Source: Sphingomonadaceae bacterium (GTDB lineage: Bacteria > Pseudomonadota > Alphaproteobacteria > Sphingomonadales > Sphingomonadaceae). From it: 64,000 bases of DNA. Position 1 is the stretch's first letter; every line of letters begins with the position of its first letter. Below are positions 15,399 to 24,683 of the stretch, piece by piece. Made by a program: the position numbers and the translations under genes. The notes under the pieces were generated by a model. That model worked only from the letters and a program-made list of their open reading frames with translations. It was not told where the DNA came from and did no database searches. The stretch is from positions 1 through 64,000 of the forward strand of contig CANJBY010000003.1 of NCBI GenBank assembly GCA_947472735.1, read 5' to 3'.

Positions 15399-15473
15399 TC
15401 CCCGATAGCTCAGCGGTAGAGTAGGTGACTGTTAATCACTTGGTCGTTGGTTCGAATCCAACTCGGGGAGCCA
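15399..15473 (+). tRNA. tRNA-Asn (anticodon GTT), CCA encoded
   Basis: TCCCCGA...TCGGGGA acceptor stem, GGTTCGAATCC T-arm, GTGAC-TGTTAAT-CAC anticodon arm, genomic CCA. Confidence 0.97.
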
Positions 15474-17997: not shown

Positions 17998-19203
17998 TCA
18001 GCGCAGCGAGACGACATTGTCCGTAACGCGCGGATCGCGGCGATCGCCGTAATACTGGCTCGCCATCGGTTCGTCCGCGGCTTCGACAGTCACGCCCTGA
18101 CCGAAACCATTGAATGCCGTGCGCATCGCGGCGCCATAGGCACCGAGCATGCCGATCTCGATGAAGTCGCCCGCCCGGGTATCCGCTGGCAGCATGAACG
18201 GACCTTCCATGTAGTCCATGTCATCGCAGGTCGGCCCGAAGAAGCTGAACTCGGCCTCGTCAGTGTCAGCCTCGTCCCGCAGCAGCTTGACCGGGAAGAC
18301 CCAGCCGACATGCGCCGCATCGAACAGTGCGCCATAAGCGCCGTCGTTGATGTAGAGCTCATCACCGCGCCGCTTCTCGACCTTGACCACCATCGAGTTG
18401 TACTCGGCACAGAGCGCGCGGCCTGGTTCGCACCAGAGCTCCGACGAATAGGAAATCGGCAGCGATTCAGACGCGCGGTGGATCGCCGCGAAGAAGTCCT
18501 CCAGCGGCGGCGGCTCCATGCCGGGATAGATCGAGGGGAAGCCCCCGCCGACGTCGATGATGTCGACCGTGACTGCCGCGTCGACAATCGCCGCGCGGAC
18601 CCGCTCCAGCGCCTGGACATAGGCGAATGGCGTCATCGCCTGCGAACCGACGTGGAAGCAGATGCCAAGCGCATCGGCGACCTGGCGGGTTGCTTGCAGC
18701 AGCGGGGCGGCATCGACCAGGTCGACGCCAAACTTGGCGGCAAGGCTGAGCTTGGAGTGGTCCGAAGACACCCGCAGGCGCACGCAGAGCGAAAGATCTT
18801 CCGCCCCGGTGCCGTCTTCGTTGCGCGTTGCAGCGACGATCTTCTCCAGTTCCTCGTGCGTATCGAGGCTGAAGGTACGTACGCCATGAACTTTGTACGC
18901 CTCGGTGATCGCGCTCGCGGTCTTCACCGGGTGCATGAAGCATAGCACGGCCGCGGGCAGTGTGGCGCGGACCAGCCGCACCTCGGCGATCGAGGCAACG
19001 TCGAAATGCGTTATTCCGGCATCCCACAGCACCCGCAGCAGAGCGGGCGAAGGGTTGGCCTTCACCGCATAGAGCGACTTGCCCGGAAACTTCTCGACAA
19101 AGAAGCGGGCAGCGCGCGCGGCGGCGTGCGGGCGATTCAGGATAACGGGTTCGTCGGGCGAAAGAGCGCGAACTACAGCCGATGCATCAGGAAAATGGTG
19201 CAA
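17998..19203 (-). CDS. fold-type III PLP-dependent ornithine/lysine decarboxylase
   Basis: SLYAVKANPSPALLRVL (PLP Lys), FHVGSQAMTP, DVGGGFPSIYPG, EPGRALCAE, FGPTCDDMDYM; start is TTG or further downstream. Confidence 0.92.
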   Translation of the reverse strand: MHHFPDASAVVRALSPDEPVILNRPHAAARAARFFVEKFPGKSLYAVKANPSPALLRVLWDAGITHFDVASIAEVRLVRATLPAAVLCFMHPVKTASAITEAYKVHGVRTFSLDTHEELEKIVAATRNEDGTGAEDLSLCVRLRVSSDHSKLSLAAKFGVDLVDAAPLLQATRQVADALGICFHVGSQAMTPFAYVQALERVRAAIVDAAVTVDIIDVGGGFPSIYPGMEPPPLEDFFAAIHRASESLPISYSSELWCEPGRALCAEYNSMVVKVEKRRGDELYINDGAYGALFDAAHVGWVFPVKLLRDEADTDEAEFSFFGPTCDDMDYMEGPFMLPADTRAGDFIEIGMLGAYGAAMRTAFNGFGQGVTVEAADEPMASQYYGDRRDPRVTDNVVSLR

Positions 19204-19400
19204 CTCAAGGGACCCCCAATAGGCCTTTCAGCCAGAACAACACTAAGACGAGGCTGCCTTGCGGTTATTGGAAGTCCCCTTGGGGCAGCGGGGGGTCGCT
19301 ATAAGCTGTCCCCCCTGAACTGCAAGTGAAAATGGGGCGGCGGTTTCTCAAAACTGCCGCCGCCGTGCCGGATGGACGAAAACAGGAATAATGGGTTGTT
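19204..19400 (-). promoter_or_regulatory. structured 5' leader of the decarboxylase gene, putative RNA switch
   Basis: 13-bp helix 19209..19221 / 19266..19278 (GGGACCCCCAATA vs TATTGGAAGTCCC on + strand; 11 Watson-Crick plus 2 G-U in RNA) ends 5 nt before the start codon; further hairpins at 19290..19315 and 19336..19364. Confidence 0.5.
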
Positions 19401-19524: not shown

Positions 19525-20457
19525 TCAGCCCAGCAGGCCCTCGGGGGTGGCGCCGCGAGACAGAGCGTGCGTCGGCCCGGCACTGAGGAACTGTTCCCCA
19601 CCTTGCGCCGCTGCGGCCAGTCCGGTCTCACGATAGAGCCGGGAACGAACGATCTCGCCAGCAAGGGGATTCACCGGAGCGCGGCCCTCGCGCGCAAAAC
19701 TGCGGAACGTGGCAATGTCGGCATCCCGGTCTGCGGTCACGTCGCCGAGGCGCTCCATGATGATCGGCACCGCCGCCGGGGTCCGCGCCGAATCCAGCGC
19801 CGATAGCAGCAGGATCCCGTCGAGCACGGCGGCCTTCGGCAGCGACACGCCCTTGAACAACACCGTCAGCGGAGTTCGCCCGGTGGAGTCGAACAGGAAG
19901 ACGTGGACATTGCCGGCCAAGGGAAACAGCCAGCCGCTGAAGTCCAGACCGGTGCCCTCCATCACCACTTCGATCATGCCGCCCGGCACGCGCCGGATCA
20001 TGCCGTAATCGTGAAACAGCTTGTCAGCCATCAGCAGCGAAGGGCGGGAGGTGCGCCAGAATCCCTCGTAGGCGCCGCCGCGATGCTCAAGCTCGGGCCG
20101 GGCCGCTTCGAGAAACGCGGCAAGCGGACCGGTGTCTGCCGGCAGGCCAGCGCCGGTGGTTTCCGGTATGGCTATGCCAAGTCGCGCGGCCAGCGACGAT
20201 GTTTATTCAAACCAGTCCGCCATGGAAAAATCGCTCAGCCGCTCATTCAGCAGGGCCGTGAGCCGGGTCAGATTGTGCTCGGTGGGATGGACAGCGCCGG
20301 AGAGCCATCGCCCCACCAGGGACTTGTCGACACCGAGCCGGCTGGCCAGCTCGACGCGGCTGAGCGAGGCTGCTCGCAGGCCAAGGGTGAGCTTGGCGGC
20401 CAGATCCCTGATCGGCTCCATTCGCACAAACTCTATGCCTCCCGGGCGCAAATGCAA
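19525..20457 (-). pseudogene. XRE-family HTH regulator with conserved C-terminal domain, interrupted by one in-frame TAA (20203..20205)
   Basis: ORF 20203..20457 (HTH: LASRLGVDKSLVGRWLSG) and ORF 19525..20031 are in the same frame, separated by TAA plus 57 open codons (TSSLAARLGIAIPETTGAG...GFWRTSRPSLL). Confidence 0.75.
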
Positions 20458-21198: not shown

Positions 21199-21231
21199 AG
21201 ACCCCGTCCCGCTTTAATCGGGGCGGGGTCT
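21199..21231. terminator. bidirectional hairpin between convergent genes
   Basis: AGACCCCGTCCCG-CTTTAAT-CGGGGCGGGGTCT: 13-bp stem with one G-T pair. Confidence 0.55.
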
Positions 21232-22430
21232 CAGCTCAGACGGTTGCGGAAGTCCTCCCAACCGAAGCGCTTGATGCAGTCCAGCGCATCGCTCTCGCTG
21301 TCCCACAACCAGATCGAGGGCAGCGGCACCCCGTTGAAGGTCGTGGTCTTGACCATCGAGTAATGCGCCTGGTCGAGGAAGGCGAAGCGGCGGCCTGGTG
21401 CGACCTCACCAGCGAAGCGGTAATCGCCGATTACGTCCCCCGCGAGGCAGGACGGTCCGCCGAGCCGCACCGCGCCGCCATCGCCCTCGTCCACCGCTTC
21501 CGGGTCCGGCGTGAGCTCGCCGAGCATGGCGGGGCGATAGGGCGCTTCGATCACATCGGGCATGTGGCAAGTGGCCGATACATCGGTAATCGCCAGCGGC
21601 ATCCCGTTCCAGTGCGTATCGAGTATTGTCCCGACGAGGATACCGGCATCGAGCGCCACGGCCTCGCCCGGCTCAAGATAGACCTCGGCCCCGGTATCGT
21701 CCTTCAGGTCGAGCAGAAACTGGACCAGCTCGTCGCGCTGATAATCGGCTCTGGTAATGTGATGCCCACCACCAAGGTTGATCCACTTGAACTCACCAAA
21801 AAACGGCTCGAGATAATCGAAGGCGACGTCCCAGGTCCGGGCGAGCGGGGCGAAATCCTGTTCGCACAGCGTGTGCATGTGCAGCCCATCGACCAGCGCC
21901 ATATGCTCGTCGGTCAACTGATCGATCGGGAATCCGAGCCGCGAATGCGGGGCGCACGGATCATAGCGCGGTACTTCGCCCTCGGGATGGAGCGGGTTGA
22001 TCCGAAGGCCGATCTCGAAGCTCTCGCCCCGGCTGCGCGCCGCATCGATGATCGCGCTGCAGCGGATGATCTGCTGCGGCGAATTGAAGATCACGTGATC
22101 CGACAGGCGCAGGATCTCGTCGAGGTCTTCGGGCTTGTAGGCCGCGCAATACGTGCTGATCTCGCCATCATAGAACTCGCCCGCCAGCCGCGCTTCCCAC
22201 AGGCCCGAAGCGCAGGTCCCATCAAGATATTCGCCGATAATCGGCGCGGTAGACCACATCGAGAAGGCCTTGAGCGCCGCCAGCATCTTGACCCCGGCCC
22301 GGTCCCGGACATCGGCGAGGATCGACAGGTTCTGCCTGAGACGCGCTGCATCGACGACGAATGCGGGGCTATCGACGCGGGCGAGGTCAAATTGGGCGAA
22401 TGCGCCCGGGTCACCGGCTCTGGTTTCCAT
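21231..22430 (-). CDS. nspC: carboxynorspermidine (carboxyspermidine) decarboxylase
   Basis: SPAFVVDAARLRQNLSIL, AALKAFSMWS, LHMHTLCEQ, NLGGGHHITR, LEPGEAVALDAG; adjacent to saccharopine-dehydrogenase-like gene. Confidence 0.9.
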   Translation of the reverse strand: METRAGDPGAFAQFDLARVDSPAFVVDAARLRQNLSILADVRDRAGVKMLAALKAFSMWSTAPIIGEYLDGTCASGLWEARLAGEFYDGEISTYCAAYKPEDLDEILRLSDHVIFNSPQQIIRCSAIIDAARSRGESFEIGLRINPLHPEGEVPRYDPCAPHSRLGFPIDQLTDEHMALVDGLHMHTLCEQDFAPLARTWDVAFDYLEPFFGEFKWINLGGGHHITRADYQRDELVQFLLDLKDDTGAEVYLEPGEAVALDAGILVGTILDTHWNGMPLAITDVSATCHMPDVIEAPYRPAMLGELTPDPEAVDEGDGGAVRLGGPSCLAGDVIGDYRFAGEVAPGRRFAFLDQAHYSMVKTTTFNGVPLPSIWLWDSESDALDCIKRFGWEDFRNRLS

Positions 22431-22446: not shown

Positions 22447-23658
22447 TCAGAACGCCACCGGTCCCGGCAATTCCTTCACCTGCCAGGGCAGTCCGTGCTC
22501 ATTGAGCATCTCCATGAAGGGATCGGGGTCCATCTGCTCCATGTTGAACACGCCCTCTCCGGCCCATGCGCCGGTCAGCATCATCGCCGCGCCGATCATC
22601 GCCGGAACGCCAGTGGTGTAGCTGATCGCCTGATTACCGGTTTCGGCATAGGCCTCTTCATGGTCGCAGATCTGGTAGATGTAGAAGGTCTTTTCGCCCG
22701 ATCCATCCAGCGCCTCGCCGGTGGCGATGTCGCCGATATTGGTCTTGCCCTTGGTGGTCGGCCCCAGCGTTTCCGGCTTGGGCAGCACGGCGGCGAGGAA
22801 CTGCAGCGGGACGATCTGCTGGCCCTGGTATTCGATCGGCTCGATCCCGATCATGCCGACGTTCTTCAGCACAGTGAGGTGGTTGATATAGGCATCGCCG
22901 AAGGTCATCCAGAAGCGGGCGCGCTCCAGCTCGGGGATGAACCGGGCGAGGCTTTCAAGCTCCTCGTGATACATCATGTACATGTTCTTCGGGCCGACCG
23001 CCTCGAAGTCGAACGCCACTTTTTTCGCCAGCGGCGGGGTCTCGACGAACTGGCCGTTCTCCCAGTGCCGCGCATTGGCGGTGACTTCGCGGATGTTGAT
23101 TTCCGGGTTGAAATTGGTCGCGAAGGCCTGCCCGTGATCGCCGCCGTTGCAATCGAGTATGTCGAGCTGGCGGATAGTCTTCAGCTTGTGCTTCTTGAGC
23201 CACATCGCGAAGACGCTGGTCACCCCCGGATCGAAGCCGGAGCCGAGCAACGCCATAATCCCGCGTGCCTTGAAGCGGGCATGCAGGTTCCACTGCCAGG
23301 AATATTCGAACTTCGCGACGTCCTTCGGCTCATAGTTCGCGGTGTCGAGGTAATCGACGCCGGTGTTGAGGCACGCCTCCATGATCGTGAGGTCCTGGTA
23401 TGGCAGCGCCAGGTTGACCACCAACTTCGGACCGATCTGCTCGATCAAAGCAGACAGCGCGGGCACGTCCTCCGCGTCGATCGCATGGGTGGCGACGGTT
23501 ACCCCGCAGCGCTGCTTCACCGAATCGGCAATCGCATCGCATTTCGAAAGGGTACGGCTGGCGAGATGGATCTCGCTGAAGATGCCCGGATTGAAGGCCA
23601 TCTTGTGCACGCAAACCGAGCTGACCCCGCCCGCGCCGATCACCAGAACCTTGCTCAA
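22447..23658 (-). CDS. saccharopine dehydrogenase family protein (carboxynorspermidine/carboxyspermidine dehydrogenase)
   Basis: SKVLVIGAGGVSSVCVHKMA, FDPGVTSVFAMW, LDCNGGDHG; likely TTG start at 23658 preceded by a GGAG-type RBS. Confidence 0.9.
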   Translation of the reverse strand: MSKVLVIGAGGVSSVCVHKMAFNPGIFSEIHLASRTLSKCDAIADSVKQRCGVTVATHAIDAEDVPALSALIEQIGPKLVVNLALPYQDLTIMEACLNTGVDYLDTANYEPKDVAKFEYSWQWNLHARFKARGIMALLGSGFDPGVTSVFAMWLKKHKLKTIRQLDILDCNGGDHGQAFATNFNPEINIREVTANARHWENGQFVETPPLAKKVAFDFEAVGPKNMYMMYHEELESLARFIPELERARFWMTFGDAYINHLTVLKNVGMIGIEPIEYQGQQIVPLQFLAAVLPKPETLGPTTKGKTNIGDIATGEALDGSGEKTFYIYQICDHEEAYAETGNQAISYTTGVPAMIGAAMMLTGAWAGEGVFNMEQMDPDPFMEMLNEHGLPWQVKELPGPVAF

Positions 23659-23705
23659 TGCGCTTCTCCTTTGCAGCCGCAAGCAAGCGCAGATAGATCG
23701 CTGGC

Positions 23706-24683
23706 ATGACAGCACAACCGCAACGCAGCCCGACCGCCGCCGGGGTGGCCCGGGCCATGGACAAGATTGCGGCGCTGCTGCCGCGCACGCCCTTGCTCCC
23801 GCTCGAGATCGACGGGACGACCGTGTGGTGCAAGGCGGAGAGCCTCCAGCCCGTCGGCGCTTTCAAGATTCGCGGTGCGTGGCACCGCCTGAGCGACCTT
23901 TCGCAAGCCGAGCGCGAGGCCGGGGTGGTTGGCGTATCGAGCGGAAACCATGCGCAGGGCGTGGCCTGGGCGGCGAAGCGGCTGGGGATTCCGGCCACGA
24001 TCGTCATGCCGGTCGATGCCCCGCAGGTGAAGCTCGACGCGACCCGGGCCTACGGCGCCGAGGTGGTGCTTTATGACCGGCCCGGCGGGGAGGACCGCGA
24101 TGCCTTGGCGGAGACGCTGTGCGCCCAGCGCGGGGCGACGCTGGTCCACGCCTATGCCGATCCCTGGGTGATCGAGGGACAGGGGACCGCCGGGCTGGAG
24201 ATCGCTGCACAACTGGCCGAGCGCGGACTGGGTTTGCCGACCCGGATCGTCGCGCCTTGCGGCGGCGGCGGGCTTACAGCGGGCCTTGCCCTCGCCTGCC
24301 CGGATGCAGAGATCGTCCCGGTCGAGCCGGAAGGCTGGGACGACGTGCGCCTGAGCCTTGCGACCGGCGAGATCCAGCGTGTGCCCGTCAATGCCCCGCC
24401 TACGCCTTGCGATGCCTTGCAGACCCCCGCGACCTGGCCGATCAACTTCGCGGTCCTGAAGGAGCGGTGCGCCTATGGCCTGATGGTGACCCCGGCGGAA
24501 GTCCGGGCGGCCCAGCGACTGGCTTTTGCGCGGTTGCACCTGGTGATCGAACCCGGTGGCGCAGCAGCACTAGCCGCGGTGTTGGCGGGCAAGGCGGCGC
24601 ACGACGGCACAACCGCCGTGCTGCTGACCGGCGGCAACACCGACGCGGCGGCCTTTGCCAAGGTCATTGCTTCGACTGATTAG
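23706..24683 (+). CDS. threonine ammonia-lyase-like PLP-dependent dehydratase
   Basis: ESLQPVGAFKIRGAWHRL (PLP Lys), SSGNHAQGVAWAAK, CGGGGLTAG. Confidence 0.88.
   Translation: MTAQPQRSPTAAGVARAMDKIAALLPRTPLLPLEIDGTTVWCKAESLQPVGAFKIRGAWHRLSDLSQAEREAGVVGVSSGNHAQGVAWAAKRLGIPATIVMPVDAPQVKLDATRAYGAEVVLYDRPGGEDRDALAETLCAQRGATLVHAYADPWVIEGQGTAGLEIAAQLAERGLGLPTRIVAPCGGGGLTAGLALACPDAEIVPVEPEGWDDVRLSLATGEIQRVPVNAPPTPCDALQTPATWPINFAVLKERCAYGLMVTPAEVRAAQRLAFARLHLVIEPGGAAALAAVLAGKAAHDGTTAVLLTGGNTDAAAFAKVIASTD

Follow-up and report, generated by a model that had tools for sequence, protein, structure and literature searches.

A probable odc1-motif leader with overlapping start codons upstream of an ornithine/lysine decarboxylase gene in Sphingomonadaceae

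The leader of a lysine/ornithine decarboxylase (ODC) gene from a Sphingomonadaceae bacterium is very probably a representative of the odc1 (uORF-25-1) motif, a cis-acting element for translational control of ODC mRNA; membership was judged from the text description of that motif (PMC8632094). The element is therefore already described, having been reported in 2021 in RNA Biology as the odc1 motif. The match to it was made after the anatomy of the leader had been read from the sequences of the window (the whole 64,000-nucleotide stretch of DNA analysed) and its relatives.

As published, the odc1 motif comprises 272 alphaproteobacterial examples with ODC genes downstream, and it carries a ribosome-binding site (RBS) within helix P1, a pseudoknot at the 5' end, two UUG codons two nucleotides apart and an upstream ORF (uORF) of 11 amino acids (PMC8632094). 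The same features are present in the window. An extended P1 with a large loop (19278-19266 paired with 19221-19209) holds the RBS GGGGGU in its 3' shoulder; a pseudoknot (GCUGCC/GGCAGC), for which compensatory changes are observed, can form between the 5' end and the loop of P1; two UUG codons are separated by two nucleotides (UUG AG UUG); the uORF encodes MSCTIFLMHRL followed by a stop; and Pfam and PDB matches mark the downstream gene of this sphingomonad, and hence alphaproteobacterial, leader as ODC. No later paper on the odc1 motif was found in the literature searched, and no family in Rfam 15 matches the motif in the leader. The only Rfam match within the window is a tRNA at 15399-15470 on the plus strand.

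The main ORF (17998-19203, minus strand) encodes a member of the lysine/ornithine decarboxylase family (PLP fold III). Its product matches Pfam Orn_Arg_deC_N, its best PDB matches are the lysine/ornithine decarboxylases 5gjm and 2plj, and 147 of the 150 genus genomes encode relatives of the protein. The start codon is UUG in 169 of 170 sequences and AUG in the other.

Two adjacent genes on the ODC strand, at 21231-22430 (Pfam Orn_DAP_Arg_deC) and 22447-23715 (Sacchrp_dh), resemble those for carboxynorspermidine decarboxylase and carboxynorspermidine/saccharopine-type dehydrogenase, and likely form a polyamine cluster with ODC. Also upstream of ODC is a minus-strand HTH gene (19525-20457) with an in-frame stop at codon 85, which leaves an 84-amino-acid HTH part and an open part downstream in the same frame. 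This split gene may be a pseudogene, a sequencing error or two genes.

Structure and conservation of the leader

The feature that first drew attention to this region was a helix of 13 base pairs with two G-U pairs, formed on the minus strand by GGGACUUCCAAUA (19278-19266) and UAUUGGGGGUCCC (19221-19209) and ending five nucleotides ahead of the UUG at 19203. Both the helix and its distance from the start codon are as the earlier note gave them. The 5' strand of this helix, P1, is an anti-Shine-Dalgarno sequence whose GGGAC/GUCCC core is paired in nearly all of 83 sequences sampled across the family, and pairing of the 3' strand is likewise seen in the window and in the alignments. Inside the 3' strand lies the Shine-Dalgarno (SD) sequence GGGGGU (19212-19217), 3 nucleotides from the uORF UUG and 8 from the main UUG. 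Many family members have GGAGGTCCC at this site, and in one clade of the family the SD reads GGAGGU, with a U-A pair in place of U-G. When this 197-base stretch was shuffled 1000 times with dinucleotides preserved, only 7 of the shuffles gave a helix of at least 13 base pairs with no more than two G-U pairs. Because its base pairs hardly vary (10 of the 11 counted pairs are invariant among 56 genus sequences), covariation support for P1 is weak relative to its conservation.

The true second helix, which was absent from the original list of pairings, is a pseudoknot between GCUGCC (19289-19284) and GGCAGC (19258-19253). Relatives carry the compensatory pairs GCAGCC/GGCUGC, GCCGCC/GGCGGC and GUCGCC/GGCGAC. 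Between the pseudoknot 3' strand and the P1 5' strand is the joining segment ACCGCAA (19259-19265), which is almost invariant family-wide. The pseudoknot and the 13-bp P1 may be sterically tight together, or may be mutually exclusive.

Direct reading of the family sequences also reveals a CCCC-AA-GGGG segment at 19276-19285. In several relatives (among them L174, L176, L188, L194 and L201) this region, CCCCAUGGGG, is swapped for a longer hairpin with extra Gs. The longer hairpin and P1 can form at the same time, as would be expected of a loop located between P1 and the pseudoknot strand.

Aligning the leader across relatives, a check proposed in the earlier note, gave pairing well above controls, in addition to the alternative pseudoknot pairs. 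Among the 83 family-wide sequences, 95.9% of the cells in P1 and the pseudoknot are paired, compared with 38-58% (maximum 57.5%) when the strands are slid. These sequences contain 14 double changes versus 3.4 in shuffles, a control that ignores relatedness. In the genus alignment of 56 sequences, 99.9% of helix cells are paired. Conservation and these pairing statistics are the real evidence for the element. The folding energy of the whole 261-nucleotide stretch is better than that of shuffles (z -3.09), and that of the likely transcript by itself does not stand out from shuffles (z -0.76). Energy is thus weak evidence, and relatives are needed. The ordinary folding of the transcript is what might be expected if P1 were a chance GC-rich helix without function. 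However, a chance helix would not be expected to recur once per genome in 241 of the 251 family genomes, to keep a core that hardly varies and to show compensatory changes, so that we consider this explanation negligible.

The claim that a structured leader controls translation by hiding the ODC ribosome-binding region is therefore supported by the conserved helix over the SD, the compensatory changes, the conserved UUG and the reporter results published for this motif (PMC8632094).

Promoter and distribution

Leaders from 90 genomes of the genus, the window included, were compared. A near-invariant part running from CGCUGCCCCANGGGGACUUCCAA to ACCGCAAGGCAGC is followed by a variable stretch of ~15 to 35 nucleotides and then by UUGGGGGUCCCUUGAG-UUG. 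In a long form of the leader, the variable stretch additionally contains a GGCCgaaaGGCC hairpin. The small hairpin GGCUGAAAGGCC (19222-19233 in the window) is optional, being confined to the long form and found in some genus members and missing from others.

A promoter is the sole block conserved upstream of the element; positions -150 to -61 carry hardly any information (0.09 bits per position). The promoter consists of a -35-like TTGCAG (19320-19325, minus strand) of the alphaproteobacterial CTTG type, conserved across the 90 leaders, and a -10-like TATAGC (19298-19303), which lies 6-9 nucleotides before CGCTGCC in all 85 leaders in which both elements were recognised. The spacing in TTGnnn-16-TATnnn is 16 nucleotides in 83 of the 90 leaders, and it is the length of the spacer, not its sequence, that is conserved. 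A scan for the strict sigma-70 consensus missed this promoter; strict sigma-70 and terminator scans returned no match. The position of these boxes suggests a transcription start near 19291 (+/-3), just ahead of the pseudoknot strand. In the main text of papers on Zymomonas 5' UTRs and transcription starts, the gene does not appear.

This promoter changes how the region 5' of P1 is to be read. A set of competing helices had been proposed there, built from GGGGGG (19315-19310), CCCCCC (19295-19290) and GGGGACAGC/GCUGCCCC, with a GC hairpin GGCGGCGG/CCGCCGCC further 5'. These sequences exist as written, but they are not conserved. GGGGGG and GGGGACAGC are probably untranscribed because they lie in the promoter spacer, between TTGCAG and TATAGC, and the GC hairpin, which the closest relative (L003) lacks, is upstream of the promoter. 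Judged from sequence, GGGGGG, GGGGACAGC and the GC hairpin are probably not part of the RNA, and the competing helices appear to be mostly an artefact of promoter DNA.

The distribution of the element was searched with a covariance model built here and strict filters, which may have passed over strongly diverged copies elsewhere. Matches were obtained in 241 of the 251 genomes, and in 94 of the 96 genera, of Sphingomonadaceae, including Novosphingobium, Sphingomonas, Sphingobium, Sphingopyxis, Erythrobacter, Zymomonas, Qipengyuania and Blastomonas. There was one copy per genome among the matches listed, and no second copy was found elsewhere in the genome that contains the window. Among sampled genomes from other families of the order there was no match, all 213 hits being Sphingomonadaceae. 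In a sample of the class, 5 of 385 genomes matched, and all five belong to the same family. A few near-complete genomes of three family genera (g209, g222 and g242) lack a match, including all four sampled from g242.

A short gene overlapping the ODC start

The earlier note missed a uORF on the minus strand (19173-19208) that begins five nucleotides before the main UUG and is read in a different frame from ODC. Its UUG at 19208-19206 forms the first half of a double start, UUG AG UUG (19208-19201), and its 11 codons, MSCTIFLMHRL, end at a TAG (19175-19173) located inside the ODC gene, at nucleotides 29-31 of the ODC frame. The UUG/UUG arrangement is found in 169 of 170 sequences. In one relative (L208), AUG-AG-AUG replaces UUG-AG-UUG. 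A uORF starting from an AUG in CCCCAUGGGG was also considered and rejected: the window has AAG at this codon, as do about one quarter of the genus relatives, and its frame differs between short and long leaders.

Codon 12 of the uORF is a stop in all 170 sequences (TAG in 161, TAA in 5, TGA in 4), and stops occupy 1.8% of later codons in this frame. In the main frame, codon 10, which overlies the uORF stop, is GTA in all 90 genus members; GTA accounts for 13 of 127 nearby valine codons. The universal stop, the rarity of stops further on and the fixed GTA make selection in the uORF frame the simplest explanation for the preserved stop position. Because that position survives changes among all three stop codons, comparison of the sequences marks the uORF as a genuine short gene.

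The peptide is most constant at positions 2-4 (S/N-C-T). Its C-terminus varies by clade (HRL, HWL, LCP, PGL, RWG), with H-R/W-L or A-R-W-G conserved within clades. Part of this conservation follows from the overlapping ODC frame. Synonymous variation is reduced in main codons 2-12 (0.22 versus 0.36). The uORF has 11 codons in 168 of the 170 sequences; in the other two (L156 and L161) it also stops at codon 10, giving a peptide of 9 amino acids, and the stop at codon 12 is kept.

Start selection, candidate sensors and related RNAs

In E. coli reporters both starts of an odc1 RNA are used, the uORF start about threefold more, and the difference between rich and minimal medium is modest (PMC8632094). 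Mutations beside the pseudoknot abolish main-ORF expression, and two of the three spare the uORF. These mutants, M4-M6, alter positions immediately before the pseudoknot nucleotides (PMC8632094), and thus point to a role of pseudoknot-adjacent nucleotides for the main start.

Most likely, the element controls translation, and the choice between two starts sets ODC output. Transcription would begin just upstream of GCUGCC, so that the first nucleotides of the transcript could form the pseudoknot with GGCAGC in the P1 loop, while P1 buries the SD. With P1 closed, both starts would be off, and SD masking would set overall expression. With P1 open, the single SD would serve two overlapping starts, 3 and 8 nucleotides away, and tertiary structure around ACCGCAA, together with the pseudoknot, would bias the ribosome to one of them, such that only the proper conformation yields ODC. 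The uORF would either drain initiation or act as the sensor. Because the single gene target is ODC, the natural guess for the trigger, and the one we favour, is a cue from the polyamine pathway, which the uORF peptide possibly senses.

Two proposals for the sensor, both compatible with odc1 identity and rivals only in this respect, can be weighed. In the first, which we consider possible but less likely than not, the RNA is a metabolite-binding riboswitch, as proposed by the authors of the motif (PMC8632094). Its aptamer, built from the pseudoknot and the conserved segments ACCGCAA and CCCCANGGGG, would stabilise the masking of the SD. A small pseudoknot with the SD inside, almost invariant unpaired segments and a single biosynthetic target gene are all consistent with this proposal. 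However, P1 is strong without any ligand, the speF RNA found before this type of gene showed no binding to any of six pathway compounds (PMC1273637), and a riboswitch would leave the conservation of the uORF unexplained.

In the second, the uORF peptide is an arrest peptide: a polyamine or ornithine would stall the ribosome at the uORF stop and block both starts, so that the pathway product represses ODC, with the RNA setting basal access. A ribosome halted at this stop, ~26 nucleotides downstream of the ODC start, would hypothetically exclude a new initiating ribosome, and stalling would therefore be repressive. The codon-12 stop kept through TAG/TAA/TGA changes, the conserved residues 2-4 and clade-specific C-termini, and the reduced synonymous variation argue for this reading. 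Precedents are the polyamine-responsive AMD1 uORF, MAGDIS (cited in PMC9648851), and arginine/ornithine-dependent leader control of Salmonella speF (PMC6386406). Against it, the C-termini differ between clades, unlike those of most arrest peptides, the overlapping ODC frame accounts for part of the peptide conservation, two relatives have the 9-amino-acid version, and no stalling was reported in the 2021 paper (PMC8632094). We regard an arrest peptide as possible but doubtful, and the complete scheme, in which the 11 residues of the uORF product act as an arrest peptide that responds to a polyamine or ornithine, a stall at codon 12 occludes the ODC start and the pseudoknotted RNA decides between two starts sharing one SD, as rather unlikely to hold in all its parts.

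Although the element is known, its signal and mechanism keep it of interest. The comparative data make it possible to test whether the sequence of the uORF peptide matters beyond its length, and whether it is the pseudoknot that directs the choice between the two starts with one SD. If the arrest-peptide reading were true, the leader would be a bacterial counterpart, confined to a single family, of the polyamine uORFs of eukaryotes. Sphingomonad genera differ in their polyamine make-up, and what a near-universal family element senses would accordingly matter for this lineage. The element is absent from Rfam 15 and merits addition.

Compared with the published odc1 motif (PMC8632094), nothing essential is different. 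Added here are the family-wide distribution, the promoter position, the turnover of stop codons, the GGAGGU variant, the AUG/AUG variant and the hairpin insertions beside the pseudoknot. The uORF peptide length was stated never to vary (PMC8632094), and the two 9-amino-acid uORFs of L156 and L161 contradict this.

The alphaproteobacterial speF leader (RF00518), of which the leader was earlier suggested to be a member or diverged member, also precedes ornithine decarboxylase genes in this class of bacteria. However, it differs in sequence, architecture and, in the samples searched, host families, and no overlapping uORF start is described for it. The Rfam covariance-model search that had been suggested, speF included, gave no match in the leader, either to RF00518 at its gathering threshold or at E<=10, and none to RF00518 in the genome. 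In neither sequence nor uORF layout is there an evident resemblance between the leader and genuine speF RNAs of other alphaproteobacteria. Despite the shared gene type and class, membership in speF is thus highly improbable and was rejected. The alternative raised at the same time, a different RNA, proved right, though that RNA was already described.

The gammaproteobacterial speF leader of Salmonella and E. coli (leader peptide SpeFL) is likewise reported to use a short leader ORF to control an ODC gene (PMC6386406). That ORF lies well upstream, whereas the uORF here starts 5 nucleotides before the main start and overlaps it. Finally, the spermidine riboswitch, a SAM-I variant (PMC10853860), shares with this leader RNA control of polyamine biosynthesis, but it has another fold, acts by transcription termination and is found in Gram-positive bacteria.
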